Notes: generated from the letters alone by a model not told the origin. DNA of 8,981 nucleotides from a candidate division KSB1 bacterium (GCA_022566355.1 JADFJB010000158.1:1-8981); one strand, 5' to 3'. Counted from the first letter of the stretch, positions 1-8,410 are shown. A program made the numbers and translations.

Positions 1-369
1 GTAGAGAAGATTAACCTTCTCGCGATACTTAATAAGTTTTTTTTGGTCATCAGTTGAATCACAATTTAATGAACATTTACAACAGTAGGATAATACACAT
101 TTTTTTACCATTCAAGTACACCTTTACGGGTGCACTTTCATTATGCCAATAACCAATAGTGAATAAAAAATGATAAAATAATCTCATCATTAAGCTAAAG
201 GCCAACAGCTAAAAGCCAAGGCCCAGACTGGCTAACTTAAAGCAAAACCCTTATATTGAACGCACATTAAATTAGATTTCCAAAAACATTCAGGATTACA
301 AATTTCCCGAAGATATCGGTGTAACCTTTTTGCTTAAGTTTAGTCTACAATATTAAATTTGCAAAAACA
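1..369. other. Intergenic region upstream of the ECF operon
   Basis: I see no convincing gene on either strand. The stretch is AT-rich. A weak imperfect hairpin lies at 116-135 (GTACACC and GGTGCAC arms around TTTACG), possibly the tail of a gene outside the window. Bases 195-232 hold loosely repeated GCTAAA/GCCAA words (GCTAAAGGCCAA, then GCTAAAAGCCAAGG), low-complexity intergenic sequence without a recognised function. The right end carries the ECF-type promoter listed separately. Confidence 0.6.
321..348 (+). promoter_or_regulatory. Candidate ECF-sigma-dependent promoter (autoregulatory)
   Basis: A -35-like GTAACC at 321-326, preceded by T and followed by a T-run, is separated by 16 bases from a -10-like GTCTAC at 343-348. 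An AAC core upstream and a GTC core downstream at 16-17 bases is the usual form of ECF sigma promoters. It lies 33 bases before the TTG start of the ECF gene, giving a short leader of roughly 25-30 bases. The natural inference is that the sigma factor drives its own operon. Seen by eye only; no start-site data. Confidence 0.6.
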
Positions 370-375
370 GAAAGG
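370..375 (+). promoter_or_regulatory. Ribosome binding site that fixes the TTG start of the sigma gene
   Basis: GAAAGG ends six bases before TTG at 382. No in-frame ATG exists upstream back to a stop codon at 322-324. The next in-frame ATG (409) has no purine-rich site before it and would remove conserved N-terminal residues. TTG is therefore the best start, and its lower efficiency may keep sigma levels down. Confidence 0.65.
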
Positions 376-381
376 CAACGA

Positions 382-936
382 TTGAATCCAATTTCAGATA
401 CACAGCTTATGTTTGCTGTTAAAGAAGGTCAAATCGATAAATTGGGACTCTTATTTGAAAGGCATCATGTCGTGTTATTTAATTTTTTCTTAAAACTTAC
501 AGGGAATCGTGAATTGAGTGATGACCTTGTACAGGAGGTTTTCCTCAGGATTTTGAAATATCGAAACAGTTTTCGTGGTGACAGCAAATTTACCTCCTGG
601 ATGTACCAAATCGCAAGAAATGCACGAGTCGATTACTACCGGAAACGCAAGTTAGAGGTTTTGCCGGATGAAGATGTCCGGGAGCCAGTCAGCCAGGATC
701 CTATTGCAACGGAAGAATTGGAAACCAGTCAGGAGGCTGCTATGGTTCGTAAAGCGCTGGACAAGCTGCCATTTAAAAAAAGAGAAGTATTGGTCCTAAG
801 CCGCTTTCAAAATTTAAAATATGAAGAGATTTCAAAAATATTGAATTGCCCGGTATCTACCATAAAGGTGTTGGTTCATCGGGCTATTAAAGATTTAAGG
901 GGTATTTTTTATGAATTATCCGGAGAGAGAATATGA
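382..936 (+). CDS. ECF-family RNA polymerase sigma factor
   Basis: A 184-residue extracytoplasmic-function sigma factor that would direct core RNA polymerase to a small set of promoters. Region 2 spans about residues 20-90, with the typical LFERHH start, the SDDLVQEVFLRILKY core-binding helix and the FTSWMYQIARNARVDYYRK promoter-melting and -10 segment. An acidic linker (about 91-118) leads to region 4 at about 122-175, with LDKLPFKKREVLVLSRF and the helix-turn-helix EEISKILNCPVSTIKVLVHRA that reads the -35 element. Length and the absence of regions 1 and 3 are normal for ECF factors. It starts at TTG 382 with a good ribosome site, and its stop overlaps the start of the anti-sigma gene (ATGA), which implies translational coupling. 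An ECF-type promoter just upstream suggests it activates itself. The ECF subgroup cannot be assigned by eye. Confidence 0.95.
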   Translation: MNPISDTQLMFAVKEGQIDKLGLLFERHHVVLFNFFLKLTGNRELSDDLVQEVFLRILKYRNSFRGDSKFTSWMYQIARNARVDYYRKRKLEVLPDEDVREPVSQDPIATEELETSQEAAMVRKALDKLPFKKREVLVLSRFQNLKYEEISKILNCPVSTIKVLVHRAIKDLRGIFYELSGERI

Positions 937-1790
937 TGAATTGTAAACGAATTGAAGAATATTTACCGGATTTCATCATCGGAGATTTAGACGAGACCAT
1001 CTTATCTGAAATCCAGGAGCATCTTAACACGTGCGATTCGTGTTCAAAGGAGGTTCTGAGCGCTCAGAAAGTCTGGATGAAACTCGGGACGCTGCCAGAC
1101 GAACAACCCGGTGAAGCAACGCGCGAGCGCTTTTATACCATGCTGTCTGCTTACCAGGAAGGTTTATCGCAATCACAACAAGCGCCAAGAGTTCGGGATG
1201 TTATCAATAGCTGGATCGAACGCTGGTGGCCAAAAAATCCTGCTATTCAAATCGGCTTCTCAATGGCACTATTGCTCCTGGGCATATTTGTCGGAAGCCG
1301 GTTTGAACCTGAACAGACCGGGAATATTCAATTGACGGCATTGCAGGAAGAGGTACGCACGCAGAGTCAACTGACGGCATTGCAGGAGGACGTACGCTCG
1401 ATGAGACAACTGGTCAGCCTTGCTTTGTTAAATCAAGAGTCGCCAAGCGAGCGCCTCAAAGGCGTCAGTTTTACAACGAAAGTTGAAAGACCGGATCAGG
1501 AAATCCTGACCGCCTTGTTGAATACTTTAAATAATGATCCCAATGTCAATGTACGATTAGCGGCTATTCAATCCTTATTCCTGTTTTCCAACAATCCTGA
1601 AGTAAAATCAGGCCTGATTCAATCCCTGGCGGTGCAGAAATCACCCTTGATCCAATTTGAATTGATAGAACTTTTGGTGAAGAAGGGCGCAACACAAGCG
1701 ATAGAAACATTAAAACAAATCTCCGAAAATGATAGTGTCAACGTAGCTGTTCGCGAGCGGGCGAAATTAGGGATAGAACAATTAATCTAA
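933..1790 (+). CDS. Membrane anti-sigma factor: zinc-finger-like N-terminus, one TM helix, periplasmic HEAT repeats
   Basis: A 285-residue partner of the ECF factor. The N-terminus has the zf-HC2-type pattern: Cys4, then His30, Cys34 and Cys37 (HLNTCDSC), the fold that typically grips ECF region 2/4. A hydrophobic helix at about 104-121 gives one membrane span with the N-terminus in the cytoplasm. After it comes a short coiled-coil-like segment (132-169) containing a near-identical 13-residue tandem repeat (QLTALQEEVR and QLTALQEDVR), then SPSERLKGV and two or three HEAT-like helical hairpins (about 188-285) including NVRLAAIQSLFLF. The start ATG overlaps the sigma stop by four bases, with GGAG at 922-925. 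By analogy with other zf-HC2 anti-sigma factors it should sequester the sigma factor. The periplasmic HEAT part is the likely sensor or binding platform, possibly for the DUF4097 products of the next genes (inference). Confidence 0.9.
   Translation: MMNCKRIEEYLPDFIIGDLDETILSEIQEHLNTCDSCSKEVLSAQKVWMKLGTLPDEQPGEATRERFYTMLSAYQEGLSQSQQAPRVRDVINSWIERWWPKNPAIQIGFSMALLLLGIFVGSRFEPEQTGNIQLTALQEEVRTQSQLTALQEDVRSMRQLVSLALLNQESPSERLKGVSFTTKVERPDQEILTALLNTLNNDPNVNVRLAAIQSLFLFSNNPEVKSGLIQSLAVQKSPLIQFELIELLVKKGATQAIETLKQISENDSVNVAVRERAKLGIEQLI
1329..1400 (+). repeat. 39-bp-period tandem duplication inside the anti-sigma gene
   Basis: Bases 1329-1361 and 1368-1400 are 33-base copies with four mismatches, starting 39 bases apart. 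They encode QLTALQEEVR and QLTALQEDVR, and a third degenerate unit (QLVSLALLNQ) follows. The repeat lengthens the coiled-coil-like spacer just outside the membrane. Because the period is 13 residues, it does not keep exact heptad register. Confidence 0.85.
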
Positions 1791-1800
1791 AGGAGTACTC

Positions 1801-2658
1801 ATGAATTTTAAAAGAATCATACTGACCATTTTTCTAGTTGTCTTCAGCATTGCAAACCTGGCGGCAACGGATACCAAAAGAGAAATCATCAGGAAAACAT
1901 TAAAGTTTAGCGGTAGTGGCCCCCGTGAGCTTGTTGTTGATAATGTTAACGGATCGATCGAGATCGTCGGGTATAATGGCAATGATGTCCAACTCGTTGC
2001 AAAGTACACAATAAAAGCCCGTTCGGATCGCAAGATGAAACGAGCACAAGAGGAAGTCACTCTGGATATCAGTGATGATGACAATACCATTTCCTTGTAT
2101 GTTGATGGACCCTTTCGCCGCGCAGATGGCTCTATCAACTATAAAGGCTGGCGGCATTACGGTTATGAAGTTACCTATGATTTTGAAATCAAAGTTCCCC
2201 ACAAAACGGATCTGTTTTTAAAGACGATCAACGATGGTGAGATCACCGTTACCAATGTAACCGGAAATTATGAAGTGGATAACATCAATGGCGGCATCGA
2301 AATGGAAAAAATCAACGGAGCCGGTCATGTGTACGCCCTGAATGGAAGTGTCAGGGTTACGTTCACGAAAAATCCCCAAAAGGATTCCTATTTTGGCTCT
2401 CTGAACGGCAATGTAGATGTTACTTTTCAGCCTGGCTTCTCCGCCGATTTACACATTAAGACTTTTAACGGCCAGGCTTATTCGGATTTTCCTTTCACTT
2501 ATTTACCCACTATTTTACCGAAGCCGGTACGAAAGAAAAATGGCAAGTATGTGTACAAGAGTAATCGTGGCGCTAATGTGAGGGTAGGAAAGGGTGGACC
2601 CAAAATTGAATTGGATGGTTTTAACGGCAACATTTATATTTATGAAAATAAAGACTAG
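1801..2658 (+). CDS. Exported DUF4097-family protein (first of two)
   Basis: A 285-residue protein with a Sec-type signal peptide (KRIILTIFLVVFSIANLAA, about residues 4-22). The mature part is made of short repeated strands ending in NG turns: VDNVNGSIEI (47-55), GYNGNDV, NINGGIE (161-167), ALNGSVRVTF (179-188), SLNGNVDVTF (200-209), KTFNGQAYSDF (220-230) and FNGNIYI (274-280). This is the pattern of DUF4097, a putative beta-helix/adhesin-like family that includes LiaG-type proteins of envelope-stress loci. No catalytic residues are evident. Its ribosome site AAGGAG (1790-1795) is strong, and it begins 10 bases after the anti-sigma stop, so it is clearly in the sigma operon. It probably acts in the periplasm or at the outer surface. 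Its partner is unknown, and a role as regulon output or as a signal reporter to the anti-sigma factor is inference. Confidence 0.88.
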   Translation: MNFKRIILTIFLVVFSIANLAATDTKREIIRKTLKFSGSGPRELVVDNVNGSIEIVGYNGNDVQLVAKYTIKARSDRKMKRAQEEVTLDISDDDNTISLYVDGPFRRADGSINYKGWRHYGYEVTYDFEIKVPHKTDLFLKTINDGEITVTNVTGNYEVDNINGGIEMEKINGAGHVYALNGSVRVTFTKNPQKDSYFGSLNGNVDVTFQPGFSADLHIKTFNGQAYSDFPFTYLPTILPKPVRKKNGKYVYKSNRGANVRVGKGGPKIELDGFNGNIYIYENKD

Positions 2659-2660
2659 AA

Positions 2661-2664
2661 AGGG
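2661..2664 (+). promoter_or_regulatory. Ribosome binding site that fixes the start of the second DUF4097 gene
   Basis: AGGG ends seven bases before ATG 2672. The open frame continues upstream to 2594, but that 26-residue extension would overlap the previous gene and put a charged stretch before the signal peptide, so the start at 2672 is chosen. Confidence 0.7.
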
Positions 2665-2671
2665 TAGAAAA

Positions 2672-3493
2672 ATGAAAAAGAATTGGATGACAACTTTAAT
2701 ATTCCTTGCTGCTGCATTTATGGCATGGCCCGGGTTTGCCCAGGAGCAGGTTAGTGAAAAGTTCACTATCGAATTTAGCGATCCATCGAAGCCGGGATAC
2801 TTGAAAGTTAGCTTAACCTATGGTGGAATTACAATTCGTGGTTATGATGGCGATGAAGTGATCATAGAAACCATATATCGCAATAATAATAAAAATTCTC
2901 GTAGAAAAAAATCGAAAGGGATGTATTTAATTCCTAATACGAGCATGGGCTTTACTATCGAGGAAGAAGATAACAGGATGAAAATTTCCGGTCATGGCAA
3001 TTCAAGATCGGACCTGGTCATCGATGTTCCTGTGAATACTTCCCTGCGAATTTCAACAGTCAACGGCGGAGATATTGTGGTGGAAAATATCGAAGGTGAA
3101 ATTGAAGCAAACAATACCAATGGCGGCATCAGGATCATGGATGTTTCCGGTACCGTGATTGCGAACACGACCAATGGCAATGTAATCGTATCCTTTGTGA
3201 ATGTAAAACCGAATAAGGCGATGTCCTTTATTTCTTTCAATGGCAAAGTGGATGTTACTTTCCCGTCAAATGTAAAAGCTGACTTAAGATTAAAAACCCA
3301 AAACGGCAATATTTACAGTGATTTTGAAATCGAGGTCAAACGCACCATTCGTAGAATTGAAGAAAGTCCTCGCAGAAAAGGCGGTAAGTATAAAGTAAGA
3401 TTGGAAGGCGATATGGTTGGCAAGTTAAACGGCGGCGGTCCGGAAATGCATTTTTCCACATATAATGGCAATATTTATATCAGGAAGAATTAG
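2672..3493 (+). CDS. Exported DUF4097-family protein (second of two)
   Basis: A 273-residue protein starting at ATG 2672, 13 bases after the first DUF4097 gene. The signal peptide is classical (MKKNWMTTLIFLAAAFMAWPGFA, predicted cleavage before QEQ at residue 24). The mature part has the same strand/NG-turn pattern: TYGGITIRGYDG (49-60), STVNGGDIVV (128-137), NTNGGIRIMD (148-157), NTTNGNVIVSF (165-175), SFNGKVDVTF (188-197), KTQNGNIYSDF (208-218) and STYNGNIYIRKN at the C-terminus. The C-terminal third aligns by eye with the first copy (ADL..KT.NG..YSDF, KxGKY, GGP, NGNIYI), so the two arose by tandem duplication and then diverged. Two very basic loops (76-82 and 224-237) could touch anionic surface polymers, which is inference. 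It is the last gene of the sigma operon, with a hairpin downstream. Confidence 0.88.
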   Translation: MKKNWMTTLIFLAAAFMAWPGFAQEQVSEKFTIEFSDPSKPGYLKVSLTYGGITIRGYDGDEVIIETIYRNNNKNSRRKKSKGMYLIPNTSMGFTIEEEDNRMKISGHGNSRSDLVIDVPVNTSLRISTVNGGDIVVENIEGEIEANNTNGGIRIMDVSGTVIANTTNGNVIVSFVNVKPNKAMSFISFNGKVDVTFPSNVKADLRLKTQNGNIYSDFEIEVKRTIRRIEESPRRKGGKYKVRLEGDMVGKLNGGGPEMHFSTYNGNIYIRKN

Positions 3494-3515
3494 TATAGTA
3501 ATAATTGTAGTAATT

Positions 3516-3537
3516 CCCCTCCTTTTTTAAGGAGGGG
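3516..3537. repeat. 9-bp hairpin (CCCCTCCTT / AAGGAGGGG), probable dispersed repeat
   Basis: Perfect 9-bp arms (3516-3524 and 3529-3537) around TTTT, followed by TTAGGGGTGGTTT. It lies 22 bases after the operon's last stop. There is no T-run after the stem on the plus strand, so it is not a classic terminator. The word resembles a repeat that recurs in many environmental genomes (from memory, not checked). Confidence 0.6.
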
Positions 3538-3586
3538 TTAGGGGTGGTTTGTGACAAAAATTCAGTTAGAGAACTACCAAACTGTC

Positions 3587-3617
3587 ATCCCCGAATGCTT
3601 TTATCGGGGATCTTTTT
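3587..3617 (+). terminator. Rho-independent-type terminator built from a palindromic repeat
   Basis: ATCCCCGA (3587-3594) pairs perfectly with TCGGGGAT (3604-3611) around a 9-base loop, and CTTTTT follows at once. It sits 94 bases after the last DUF4097 stop and before the DUF2442 promoter, so it would end the sigma operon. The TGTCATCCC...GGGATCT frame recurs at 4876-4900, so the element may also be a genome-wide palindromic repeat. Confidence 0.7.
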
Positions 3618-3639
3618 ATTAATGAACCAAAGAAATAAC

Positions 3640-3668
3640 TTGACATTCGCTGACATATATATGTATTT
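3640..3668 (+). promoter_or_regulatory. Candidate promoter/operator of the DUF2442 gene
   Basis: TTGACA at 3640-3645 is a perfect -35 word, but the -10 is unclear (only AT-rich TATATATGTATTTA at plausible spacing). TGACAT occurs twice exactly 10 bases apart (3641 and 3651), and ACATATATATGT (3653-3664) is a perfect 12-base palindrome across the expected -10. A dyad over a promoter would suit an autorepressed antitoxin-like gene, but AT-alternation makes such palindromes easy by chance. Confidence 0.4.
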
Positions 3669-3694
3669 ACCTCATATTTCAAAATAAGTAAAGT

Positions 3695-3698
3695 AAGG
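3695..3698 (+). promoter_or_regulatory. Ribosome binding site favouring ATG 3707 for the DUF2442 gene
   Basis: AAGG ends eight bases before ATG 3707. The in-frame GTG at 3698 overlaps this site and has no site of its own, so ATG is preferred. Confidence 0.6.
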
Positions 3699-3706
3699 TG
3701 TCCAAA

Positions 3707-4003
3707 ATGCTACACAAAATTTATCATGTCAAATCGTTTGAAATTGTTGCTCCATATACCTTACGAATAGACTTTAATGATTTAACTACTCAAACAATAA
3801 ACTTCGAAGCTATTCTCAAAGGTGAGCTCTATGGACCATTAAGAGATCTATCCCTATTCAACCAGGTGAAGCTAGATCCGGAATTTGAAACTTTAGTGTG
3901 GCCAAATGGTGCGGATTTTGATCCGGAGACTCTTCATAACTGGCCAGACTATGAATCAGCCCTTAGAGAACGTGCAAAACAATGGTCTGCTTCAGTAATC
4001 TAG
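3707..4003 (+). CDS. DUF2442 family protein, orphan antitoxin-like
   Basis: A 98-residue protein matching DUF2442 along its whole length: an N-terminal strand pattern (KIYHVKSFEIVAPYTLRIDFNDLTTQTINF), the characteristic GELYGPLRDLSLFNQVKLDP, then LVWPNGADFDPETLHN and an additional short C-terminal helix. DUF2442 proteins often occur in pairs with DUF4160 and are annotated as putative antitoxins of a type II-like system. No DUF4160-like reading frame lies on either side here: upstream is a terminator and promoter, downstream the convergent TPR remnant. It may therefore be an orphan or act on a partner elsewhere. It is transcribed alone. The family assignment is firm, but the cellular role is not. 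Confidence 0.85.
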   Translation: MLHKIYHVKSFEIVAPYTLRIDFNDLTTQTINFEAILKGELYGPLRDLSLFNQVKLDPEFETLVWPNGADFDPETLHNWPDYESALRERAKQWSASVI

Positions 4004-5039: not shown

Positions 5040-6406
5040 CTAAGCGGACTTCCAAAACGGTCCCGTAATGGCAAGTGTTAGTCCGGCTCGCTGCATATTT
5101 ATGAAAAGAGTTGTTCCGTCCGGGGAAAAGCAAACACCTGCAAATTCAGTATGTTTATGATGATTAGCGAACGTGTAAAACTGTCCCTGCGGCGTGATGC
5201 CGACCAATCTGACTTCATCGCCGCTGCGGTCTTCACAAACGATTATGTCGCCCCAAGGGGCGATGGTCAAATTGTCGGCGTTCTTAATCAGCTCGGAATC
5301 ATTCGACTCAATAAATAGTTCGAGAATACCGGATTCATAACCTTCTTCCCCGCCTTCAACAGAACCGGGAATGTAGCGCCATATTTGGCCCATTTTTTCT
5401 TCCCACCACTGGTACAGGCAAAGTAAACACCGTCTTCGCCACGCCACATACCTTCACCGCGCGCAAACAGCGCCGCCCCCTTATCGTGGCCACGCTTACG
5501 GAGATCATCTTCCGGCGCTTCAACATCTTCCATATCGATCCATGCCACTTTCAGGCGTTCACGAACTTTAATCTGTTCATCACCCCAATTGCGGGTGTCT
5601 TTTCGTCCGTCTACAATTCTCAATGCTTGCAGTTTTCCTCCTTTGACAAATTTTCGGGGTTCATTTGGAATGAAACGATATATCAAACCATTGCCCCTGT
5701 CTTCCGTCTGGTAAACAATACCCGTTGCCGGATCGACAGCAATAGCTTCGTGGCGGAACCGCCCCATCGACTTTAAGGGAATAGGATCGGCTAACTGAAT
5801 TTTTGCAGAGGCTGGCACTTCAAAATTAAAGCCGTGATATTTTTCGATAAGAATACCGTTTCTATTTTCCGGCACATCGTTGGTTTCCTCGCAGGTGATC
5901 CAGGATTTCCAGGGAGTGGGTTCACCGGCACAGTTGCGAACTGATCCGGCCAGACTCAGGTATTGGGTGACTATTGCCTGGTTATGAGTGTCATAAACAA
6001 AAGTGCTTGTGCCCCCGCAGGCTGGCGTCTTTCCTTTACCATCATCATACACTTTATTGGGGTCAATTTTATTAAATAACTCGTGCTTTTTTCCGTAGGT
6101 GCCTTTTCTGCCAGGGTTGATCTCGTGATTTCTAACCACAATCGTAAACTCGTTTGGTCCGGCAAAGGTAGCCATACCGTCTGGTATTGGCGGCACAAAA
6201 TAACCGTCATCCATCATATCGCCTGGTTGAGAGATTATTTAGTAAGTAAACCCATTCGGCAAGTCAAGAATTCCATCAGGATCCGGTCTTAGTGGACCAT
6301 AGCCATGTGCACGTAAACCTGGTTGTCCGATTGATTTTATGGGCGCACACGAAAACTTAGACAAACCAAGAAATCCCATCGAAACAGCACTACAGGTTTT
6401 CAGGAA
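5040..6406 (-). pseudogene. PhoX/DUF839-type phosphatase, broken (5' end lost, in-frame stop, frameshift)
   Basis: The remnant aligns with the PhoX-like family of calcium/iron-dependent alkaline phosphatases. Visible marks in order are FLKTCSAVSMGFLGLSKFSC (remainder of a Tat-type signal), GPLRPDPDGILDLPNGFTY, GDMMDDGYFVPPIPDGMATF, VRNHE, ACGGTSTFVYD, CAGEPTPWKSWITCEET, MGRFRHEA, GIVYQTEDR, FACTSGG, NADNLTIAPWGDIIVCED, and LFINMQRAGLTLAITGP with TAG at 5040. Three lesions are seen. The RR start before FLK is missing (about 6406). TAA at 6239-6241 replaces a codon after GFTY. One base is lost in a six-T run (5393-5398), which moves the frame between CTSGGKK and MGQIWRYIPG. Restoring that base gives 455 codons plus stop. 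Intact relatives are exported by the Tat system and release phosphate from organic esters. No product is expected here. Confidence 0.85.
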
Positions 6407-6800
6407 ATGTACATGGTATTCTCTTGGGATATTAAATTTTCAATCCTCTCTATAAAAAGAGACTTGGGATCATCAGTAGATTTGTATTCACTACTAAGTG
6501 ATGAATAAAAATAGATTTCTTTTCTTAATGTTTCACAAATTGTTCGATAATTGATCCAGTGTTCTTGATAATTAAATGCTTTTAAAACTGTCGTTCCGAT
6601 AGCCACAATGGCTGAGATAATAATAATGAACGATTTTGTTAAATCAAGTGCGACAAGTATTGGAGTCATGGTGGATGCTATGATGACAACTGCAGCCAAA
6701 ACTTATATTTTTTCTGACTCGAAATTGATTTTTTATTGTACCAGGTTATTTGATCTTCGTATCTTCCTTTTGCATATATATCAAATTGTTCCTTATCCAT
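6400..6800 (-). pseudogene. DUF4231/SLATT-like two-TM membrane protein, frameshifted
   Basis: ATG at 6800 is preceded by AGGAAAG and opens MDKEQFDIYAKGRYEDQITW, then YNKKSISSQKKYKF, and stops at 6678. A second frame starting at 6699 continues with LAAVVIIASTMTPILVAL, FIIIISAIVAIGTTVLKAF, YQEHWINYRTICETLRKEI and FIERIENLISQENTMYIS. Adding one T to the four-T run at 6698-6701 joins them into 133 residues with the DUF4231 layout: an N-terminal WY helix, two membrane helices (about 34-52 and 57-75), then the NYQEHWINYR...E.LRKE signature. SLATT-type proteins are thought to be pore-forming effectors in nucleotide-linked conflict systems, but no nucleotide cyclase gene is nearby. Its last codons overlap the truncated start of the phosphatase remnant, so the C-terminus may be altered. 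It could be a recent mutation or an assembly error. Confidence 0.75.
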
Positions 6801-6913: not shown

Positions 6914-8410
6914 CTACTCCACTTTCAGCTTCTTCAACATATCCACCGCATTGGTGTTATCAGGATTCAACTCCACAGATTTCTGGTAATTTTTGATGGC
7001 CAATTCCAGTTTTCCTGCTTTCATGTAGGCTTCTCCTAAACTGTCGTAGACGTTATAAGCTTCGGGATAAACTTCTACATTTAATTTGAAGATTGTGATT
7101 GCAATATCAAAACTGTTATTTTGCAGATAATGGTAGCCAAGCGTGTTCAATTCACGTTCAGCAAAATTATATTTGTCAATTTCTTCAACTTTCAAATGAT
7201 GATATTGATGGATTGCCCGGTCAAGACCTTCATTTCGAAGGGTCTTTGCAAGAATACCGGCAATTGAAATTTTTGGGATGGTATACTCACGGTCATGAAG
7301 GATATTCAGAATCTCCTGCCTGATGCTGTTGAGATATGAACTGGAGTGATTTGTCAAGATGATAAATGTATTGCGATCTTCAATTTCTCTATGGATATAG
7401 GTTCTGAATCCAACCCAACCGCCGGAGTGGCTCACTCTCTTTTTCCCTGCTTTCGTTTCCCCAATACCCCAGCCAAATCCATAGTTATGTGTGCTGTCAT
7501 TATTGAGAGTAACCGGTTGAAAAGCTTCCTCCAATGTTGATCGGTTTACAAGTTTTTCTGTATACAAAGCCTGATCCCACTTGAATAAATCACCAATTGT
7601 AGAATAGATTCCACCATCACCGGCAATGCCATTGAGGTAATGATGATCATTGGGTGTTGTGCTACTGCCATCCAGGGCCAATCGGTACCCATAAACTCTG
7701 TCCTCCATTTGCTGATCTTTGATTGGGCTATAGACAAGTGTTCTTGTCATTTTTAATGGAGTAAAAACATGCAGCTTCAGAAAATTGTCAAACTCTTCCC
7801 CAGAAACCCTTTCCACAATAGATGCCAAAATGACATAGCCGGTATTGCTGTATTCCCAGCGATCTCCAGGTGCGAAATGAACAGTCGGTTTATGTTTAGC
7901 CAATAGTTCGATGGCGTCATTGTTCGCTGCCACCTTTTTTGCGGAGGAATTCTCTTGAGTTTTTTCCCAATGTTTATTAAACATAGTGACATAATCCGGC
8001 AATCCTGAAGTATGATTCAGCAGATTCCGAATCGTGATGAACCCATAAGGCAATTCCGGGATATGCTTCCTGATATCATCTTCATAGGTCAATTTATCTT
8101 CTTCTTTCAGCATCATAATCGCCATAGCTGTGAACTGCTTGGAAACGGATGCCAACCTGAATTGAGAATCCAAGCTGAGCTGCTCTTTTGTTTTGTAATT
8201 GGCTATTCCCAGGGCTTTTTGATAGATGATATTGCCATGTTCAGCAAGAAAAACAACGCCATTAAATTGACCGTTTTCGTAGCATGTGGTGATCAGGTTG
8301 TCAAGCTTTTGAGCTTTTGTTTGGGCGAAACAAGTTTGAGCTTTAACTACCAGTGTTAAAATGAGTAAAAGAAAACTTAAATATTTGCGAAATGAGTTGT
8401 GTCCATTCAT
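6914..8410 (-). CDS. Exported serine beta-lactamase-family protein with C-terminal TPR repeats
   Basis: A 498-residue protein with a signal peptide (FRKYLSFLLLILTLVVKA, cleavage probably near residues 29-30), so periplasmic or outer. The beta-lactamase/PBP-like domain covers about 33-370 and has all three class C-type motifs: SVSK with Ser88 and Lys91 (nucleophile and base), YSN at 187-189, and HSG at 328-330. NHTSGLPDY (132-140) and GIYSTIGDLFKW are also typical. A linker leads to two or three TPRs at about 415-495 (LGYHYLQNNSFDIAITIF, DSLGEAYMKAGKLELAIKNY). Such serine hydrolases usually act as peptidases or esterases on peptidoglycan-like or small substrates rather than as resistance enzymes. 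The TPR tail suggests docking to a partner. The start ATG 8410 has GGAG six bases upstream. It is followed after 113 bases by the broken DUF4231 gene and is itself intact. Confidence 0.93.
   Translation of the reverse strand: MNGHNSFRKYLSFLLLILTLVVKAQTCFAQTKAQKLDNLITTCYENGQFNGVVFLAEHGNIIYQKALGIANYKTKEQLSLDSQFRLASVSKQFTAMAIMMLKEEDKLTYEDDIRKHIPELPYGFITIRNLLNHTSGLPDYVTMFNKHWEKTQENSSAKKVAANNDAIELLAKHKPTVHFAPGDRWEYSNTGYVILASIVERVSGEEFDNFLKLHVFTPLKMTRTLVYSPIKDQQMEDRVYGYRLALDGSSTTPNDHHYLNGIAGDGGIYSTIGDLFKWDQALYTEKLVNRSTLEEAFQPVTLNNDSTHNYGFGWGIGETKAGKKRVSHSGGWVGFRTYIHREIEDRNTFIILTNHSSSYLNSIRQEILNILHDREYTIPKISIAGILAKTLRNEGLDRAIHQYHHLKVEEIDKYNFAERELNTLGYHYLQNNSFDIAITIFKLNVEVYPEAYNVYDSLGEAYMKAGKLELAIKNYQKSVELNPDNTNAVDMLKKLKVE

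Follow-up and report, generated by a model that had tools for sequence, protein, structure and literature searches.

What could an extracytoplasmic function (ECF) sigma factor, a membrane-bound anti-sigma factor with HEAT repeats and two exported proteins of the DUF4097 family be doing together in one operon? The question is raised by a stretch of 8,981 nucleotides from a candidate division KSB1 bacterium (GCA_022566355.1, JADFJB010000158.1:1-8981), here called the window, in which the four genes form a compact cassette on the plus strand. DUF4097 is now named Toastrack, and the family has been surveyed by Ravi et al. 2024 (PMC11237479); the two exported proteins are therefore called Toastrack A and Toastrack B below. 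The reading favoured here, and held with moderate confidence, is that the cassette works as an autoregulated envelope-stress switch, of a type with a wide distribution, in which Toastracks located on the HEAT domain would set the release of the sigma factor.

The cassette and its recurrence across phyla

The sigma factor gene (382-936) has a TTG start and encodes a protein with regions 2 and 4 only, matched by Pfam Sigma70_r2 (PF04542, 1e-16) and Sigma70_r4_2 (PF08281, 5e-16); it scores 112 bits against the ECF superfamily model TIGR02937, the cut-off of which is 42.9, and it may already fall within an existing ECF group number. The anti-sigma factor gene (933-1790) overlaps it by 4 bases (ATGA), and is followed after gaps of 10 and 13 bases by the genes encoding Toastrack A (1801-2658) and Toastrack B (2672-3493), so the gene coordinates bear out the tight packing that an earlier note on this DNA had described. 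A longer open reading frame for Toastrack B, with GTG at 2594, was judged not to be the likely start. The intrinsic terminator that had been thought to close the unit is recovered as a hairpin at 3587-3611 (ATCCCCGA, a loop of nine, TCGGGGAT) with CTTTTT at 3612-3617, predicted in the RNA fold of 3494-3625 (z -3.6); a simple hairpin scan with a loop limit of 8 overlooks it.

Homologues of the anti-sigma factor were detected by whole-genome search in 46 of 59 relatives, and a profile scan of contigs, with one genome per species, returned 351 loci encoding HEAT anti-sigma relatives. The scan was seeded on the HEAT motif, and is thus biased towards HEAT-bearing anti-sigma factors and unbiased as to Toastracks. 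The best 80 of the 351 loci belong to KSB1, Aminicenantes, Acidobacteria, Bacteroidota (Spirosoma, Runella, Larkinella, Hymenobacter and others), Ignavibacteria, Kapaibacterium, Gemmatimonadota and Verrucomicrobia. Toastrack genes were counted in the 75 distinct loci for which 2 kb or more of downstream DNA was available: at least one, on the same strand and within four genes, was present in 74, and at least two in 56. The sigma gene immediately precedes the anti-sigma gene in 78 of 81 loci, and the commonest junction between them is the same 4-base overlap (31/78). Linkage of HEAT anti-sigma and DUF4097 genes, set beforehand as a test of the earlier proposal, is strongly upheld by these counts. 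A sigma/anti-sigma pair lying beside unrelated DUF4097 genes through chance or hitch-hiking is already refuted by such recurrence and has a negligible probability; the gene order is shared by several phyla, with anti-sigma identities of about 24-61%.

The cassette is preceded by an ECF-type promoter at 320-348 (TGTAACCTTT...AGTCTAC; -35 element TGTAACC, -10 element GTCTAC), with the sigma start 62 bases on. This element had also been proposed earlier, and phylogenetic footprinting substantiates it: of 75 distinct regions upstream of orthologues, 72 contain a match of at least 8/10 to TGTAACCTTT and 63 one of at least 9/10, the corresponding values for mononucleotide shuffles being 10% and 0.8%. 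The architecture is TGTAACCTTT-N13-GTnT with fixed spacing, and the core hardly varies among 66 aligned sites, all of which have A at position 5, C at position 6 and T at position 8. The 4.6 Mb genome to which the window belongs contains one zero-mismatch site, ahead of the cassette, and a related strict pattern finds one match in this genome and one in its nearest relative, both at the cassette. Given the footprint and the single strict genomic site, it is very probable that the cassette's own sigma factor transcribes the operon, and sequence comparison leaves little doubt that it would be a conserved autoregulated operon. With its own conserved promoter and its recurrent Toastrack pair, the cassette answers to the self-contained ECF sigma, anti-sigma and tandem DUF4097 unit that had been claimed. 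Across phyla, TTG or GTG appears to be the sigma start codon at 65 of 74 loci and ATG at nine, mostly at the same codon position; such a conserved start may act as a brake on sigma translation.

The HEAT anti-sigma factor and the Toastracks

The anti-sigma factor matches zf-HC2 (2e-6, over the cut-off) and HEAT_2 (5e-7) in Pfam, and its profile matches the RsiW structure 5wuq_C (E 0.002). In an AlphaFold2 model with a predicted local distance difference test score (pLDDT) of 90.5, N-terminal anti-sigma helices (residues 4-52 and 61-83) are followed by a membrane helix (103-123), a stalk formed by one long helix (134-166) and the helices of the HEAT repeats (171-284), in agreement with the single membrane helix, periplasmic stalk and HEAT repeats noticed earlier. 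The stalk is conserved, with the consensus MRQxVxLSLLxQxSASERLRGVS. With its N-terminal helical domain, encoded directly after the sigma gene, the protein is a class I anti-sigma factor (ASDI), and by homology it almost certainly binds and inhibits the cassette sigma factor at the membrane. The zinc-finger-like domain of the earlier note was confirmed in part: zf-HC2 and the motif HxxxCxxC (H30, C34, C37) are present in the window, but the domain is inconstant, the ligands being intact in 78 of 85 aligned orthologues and missing in seven, whereas HEAT_2 is matched by all 85. Zinc-redox sensing was dropped as an idea because of this loss of ligands. The zinc motif is optional in class I anti-sigma factors, and zinc-less members are normal (PMC7406223).

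Toastrack B matches Pfam DUF4097 (PF13349, 2.2e-7, over the cut-off), and its C-terminal part is LiaG-like, the NCBIfam LiaG match (6e-8) lying below that model's cut-off. Toastrack A itself has no Pfam match; DUF4097 is matched by 41 of its 59 aligned orthologues, and the profiles of A and B align over 255 columns (hhalign 100%, E 8e-57). The AlphaFold2 model of Toastrack A (pLDDT 93.5) has as its best PDB fold match 4QRK (E 2.5e-9), one of the two Toastrack-fold example structures named by Ravi et al. (PMC11237479), and also matches 3PET and 4OPW; TM-scores are moderate (0.42-0.52 for 4QRK). A sequence search of the PDB with the Toastrack profiles gave nothing useful, while the fold search did find 4QRK. 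A simple rule finds signal peptides in 55 of the 60 Toastrack A proteins and in 76 of the 81 Toastrack B proteins, compared with 1 of 78 sigma proteins, which makes it very likely that the cassette Toastracks are extracytoplasmic. The two exported, beta-helix-like DUF4097 proteins described earlier are thus recognisable as such by signal peptide in both, by modelled fold in A and by family match in B.

Are the Toastracks tied to the HEAT domain itself, or simply to ECF operons? The control consisted of ECF/anti-sigma operons of the same phylum that do not belong to the main set, among them 20 regions chosen for an anti-sigma match in the N-terminal domain only. Toastracks follow 11 of 12 HEAT-bearing anti-sigma factors and 1 of 29 HEAT-less ones (Fisher p 4.4e-8). 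The HEAT-bearing control operons are mostly of a divergent second type, with an anti-sigma factor of 303-332 amino acids and one Toastrack-like protein of 380-446 amino acids. This co-occurrence is the best evidence in hand, and suggests a joint function of the extracytoplasmic HEAT domain and the Toastracks, which need not involve contact. In the genome of the window, an ECF/anti-sigma pair that has no HEAT domain (locus L062, 5528-9437) is followed by two separate multi-HEAT proteins of 611 and 380 amino acids, which look like a HEAT part detached from its anti-sigma factor.

The same comparison bears on a rather unlikely alternative, namely that the Toastracks are outputs only, which coat or scaffold the envelope as protective effectors and make no contact with the anti-sigma factor, while some other signal on the HEAT domain frees sigma. 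Such a role would suit genes that lie inside a sigma-driven operon and have LiaG/LiaX-like relatives in envelope-stress loci (PMC11237479), and a further Toastrack gene of this genome is grouped with ABC ATPases and MacB permeases. However, Toastracks track anti-sigma factors of the HEAT type and not HEAT-less ones of the same phylum, and no extra promoter site that was examined precedes a cassette-free Toastrack gene, although lone copies of an effector would be expected sometimes. The further gene just mentioned (locus L058, 1902-8894) has a transport-linked setting, its neighbours being two ABC ATPases, a MacB permease and an HlyD-like protein.

Proposed control of sigma release and the predicted regulon

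In the favoured reading of a switch governed by Toastracks on the HEAT domain, the Toastracks of resting cells would sit on that domain or on the conserved stalk, and the anti-sigma factor would stay intact. Once the envelope was damaged, or the Toastracks were titrated away by damaged wall or membrane, the anti-sigma factor would be open to regulated proteolysis and the sigma factor would be freed. Free sigma would transcribe the cassette, giving a positive loop through itself and a negative reset through the anti-sigma factor and the Toastracks, and would also switch on a few envelope genes, such as those for FtsX/MacB-type permeases or PF00144 exported hydrolases. The proposal of a multi-phylum system in which release is switched by the extracytoplasmic HEAT domain of an ECF anti-sigma factor, with the two secreted Toastracks as dedicated ligands of that domain, is evenly balanced between acceptance and doubt. 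That the Toastracks act as RseB-like negative co-regulators rather than as activators is proposed tentatively.

Several observations weigh against the favoured reading. Two HEAT cassettes carry no Toastrack, one of them in the main set with enough downstream DNA (L051) and the other a second paralogue (L053), and many cassettes of Acidobacteria have a single one, so the pair is not essential. In 52 complete cassettes, covariation (mutual information with average product correction) linked the Toastracks to the HEAT domain no more strongly than to the cytoplasmic domain; in the same analysis, with about 39 effective sequences, the positive control (sigma factor and anti-sigma domain) barely rose above background, so the comparison has no power. 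Physical contact between the HEAT domain and the Toastracks is considered slightly the likelier arrangement. Ravi et al. 2024 (PMC11237479) also argue for an intracellular place of Toastrack domains, but their case is built on fusions to membrane domains and not on proteins like the cassette Toastracks. Finally, the genome of the window has nine promoter sites at two or fewer mismatches, as against 21 for the reversed control, and because of this shortfall a wider regulon rests on the identity of the downstream genes only.

These genome-wide scans relied on consensus patterns and not on a full search with a position weight matrix (PWM). Four of the nine sites fall inside open reading frames and five precede genes, which are the cassette, three FtsX/MacB-type permeases (on C199, C175 and the fragmentary C12) and an exported protein (C90). 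A PWM built from cassette promoters gives scores of 26.4 for the cassette, 20.4 and 14.9 for two permease genes and 6.5 for the next upstream region, a ranking that is not an independent enrichment test, many of the regions scored having been chosen as MacB/permease loci. Eight non-cassette sites were found in 11 Cytophagales genomes, five preceding PF00144 hydrolases (two Pfam-confirmed, three assigned by sequence similarity) and one an alpha/beta hydrolase; PF00144 has 26-32 matches per 8 Mb genome in this group, and site counts are not independent among related genomes. The same families occur as neighbours: a PF00144 gene follows Toastrack B in five Bacteroidota loci, genes of this family lie within KSB1 cassettes or behind them, and several cassettes are flanked by MacB genes. 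A small envelope regulon is on the whole probable, comprising the cassette, FtsX/MacB permeases in the genome of the window and PF00144 exported hydrolases in Cytophagales. One such hydrolase shows NCBIfam kinship, below cut-offs, to D-aminopeptidases and AmpH, and for this reason beta-lactam resistance is not to be assumed. In one KSB1 cassette (L040) a PF00144 beta-lactamase-family gene lies on the minus strand (2510-3901) between the anti-sigma and Toastrack A genes. The window has a PF00144 hydrolase gene of its own, with tetratricopeptide repeats (TPR), on the minus strand at 6914-8410 (Pfam 7e-56), 3.4 kb downstream of the cassette; it was rejected as a sigma target, there being no promoter match upstream, and is a possible functional neighbour only, outside the operon.

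Permeases and hydrolases of this kind bear on a further and still less likely alternative, in which the HEAT domain answers to a ligand that does not belong to the cassette, be it a wall precursor, a misfolded envelope protein or a permease such as the FtsX/MacB targets, and the Toastracks deliver or receive it, activating release as lysozyme does with RsiV. Both MacB/FtsX permeases and PF00144 hydrolases are among the predicted targets and neighbours, and in Bce-type systems transporters can serve as sensors. The present results do not separate activation from inhibition, and permeases are absent from some cassettes.

Known systems and the rest of the window

The cassette shares with RseA/RpoE and RsiW/SigW (ASDI) an ECF sigma gene followed by that of a translationally coupled, single-pass membrane anti-sigma factor and an autoregulated promoter, but differs in that its anti-sigma factor has a stalk and HEAT repeats outside and in that the operon is completed by two exported Toastracks. 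It resembles RseB/MucB systems in having an exported protein encoded right after the sigma/anti-sigma pair, with a proposed seat on the outer part of the anti-sigma factor that for the cassette is inferred; unlike them, its exported proteins have the Toastrack fold and not the MucB/RseB fold. The fold of RseB is a lipid-binding one, with no relation to the beta-helix of the Toastracks, and RseA is not known to carry a HEAT domain. The Toastrack fold and an association with envelope stress are shared with the PSP/Lia contexts of Toastrack and LiaG-LiaF (PMC11237479), whereas the cassette Toastracks are exported, paired with a HEAT anti-sigma factor and free of PspC, LiaI and SHOCT parts; a Pfam scan of the four cassette proteins and of those other window genes that it covered found no PspC, LiaI-LiaF-TM, SHOCT or PspA. 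One context in the PSP/Lia survey, of DUF2089 type, includes an operonically linked sigma factor, but neither 'anti-sigma' nor 'ECF' occurs in the main text of the survey, and the pairing with a HEAT anti-sigma factor is not described there (PMC11237479). A literature search, with the main ECF classification outside its coverage, gave no experimental or comparative description of HEAT-domain anti-sigma factors or of the cassette. ECF/anti-sigma modules are well known, and the combination of HEAT anti-sigma factor and Toastracks is apparently undescribed as a system.

If the favoured reading is true, Acidobacteria, Cytophagales and several candidate phyla, in which little such regulation is known, would share a testable envelope-stress circuit, and exported DUF4097 proteins would be offered a function. 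The near-invariant ECF promoter could be used to read out regulons, and a further kind of anti-sigma control would stand beside the sensing of outer-membrane-protein (OMP) peptides with RseB and ligand-triggered proteolysis (RsiV). The cassette is testable because culturable hosts (Spirosoma, Runella, Larkinella and Hymenobacter) carry the same one.

The window has some other notable features. A hairpin-forming dispersed repeat, CCCCTCCTTTTTTAAGGAGGGGTTAGGGGTGGT, occupies 3516-3548 and has nine copies in the genome at three or fewer mismatches, compared with none for the reversed control. Between 4200 and 4600 the GC content rises to 64%, against about 34-45% in the surroundings, with no convincing gene. 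A PhoX gene (PF05787) on the minus strand at 5040-6217 is split between two reading frames (profile positions 152-370 and 381-515), and is thus frameshifted or decayed. Further on, at 6400-6699 of the minus strand, lies a DUF4231/SLATT-like two-helix fragment, of a family tied to defence systems.

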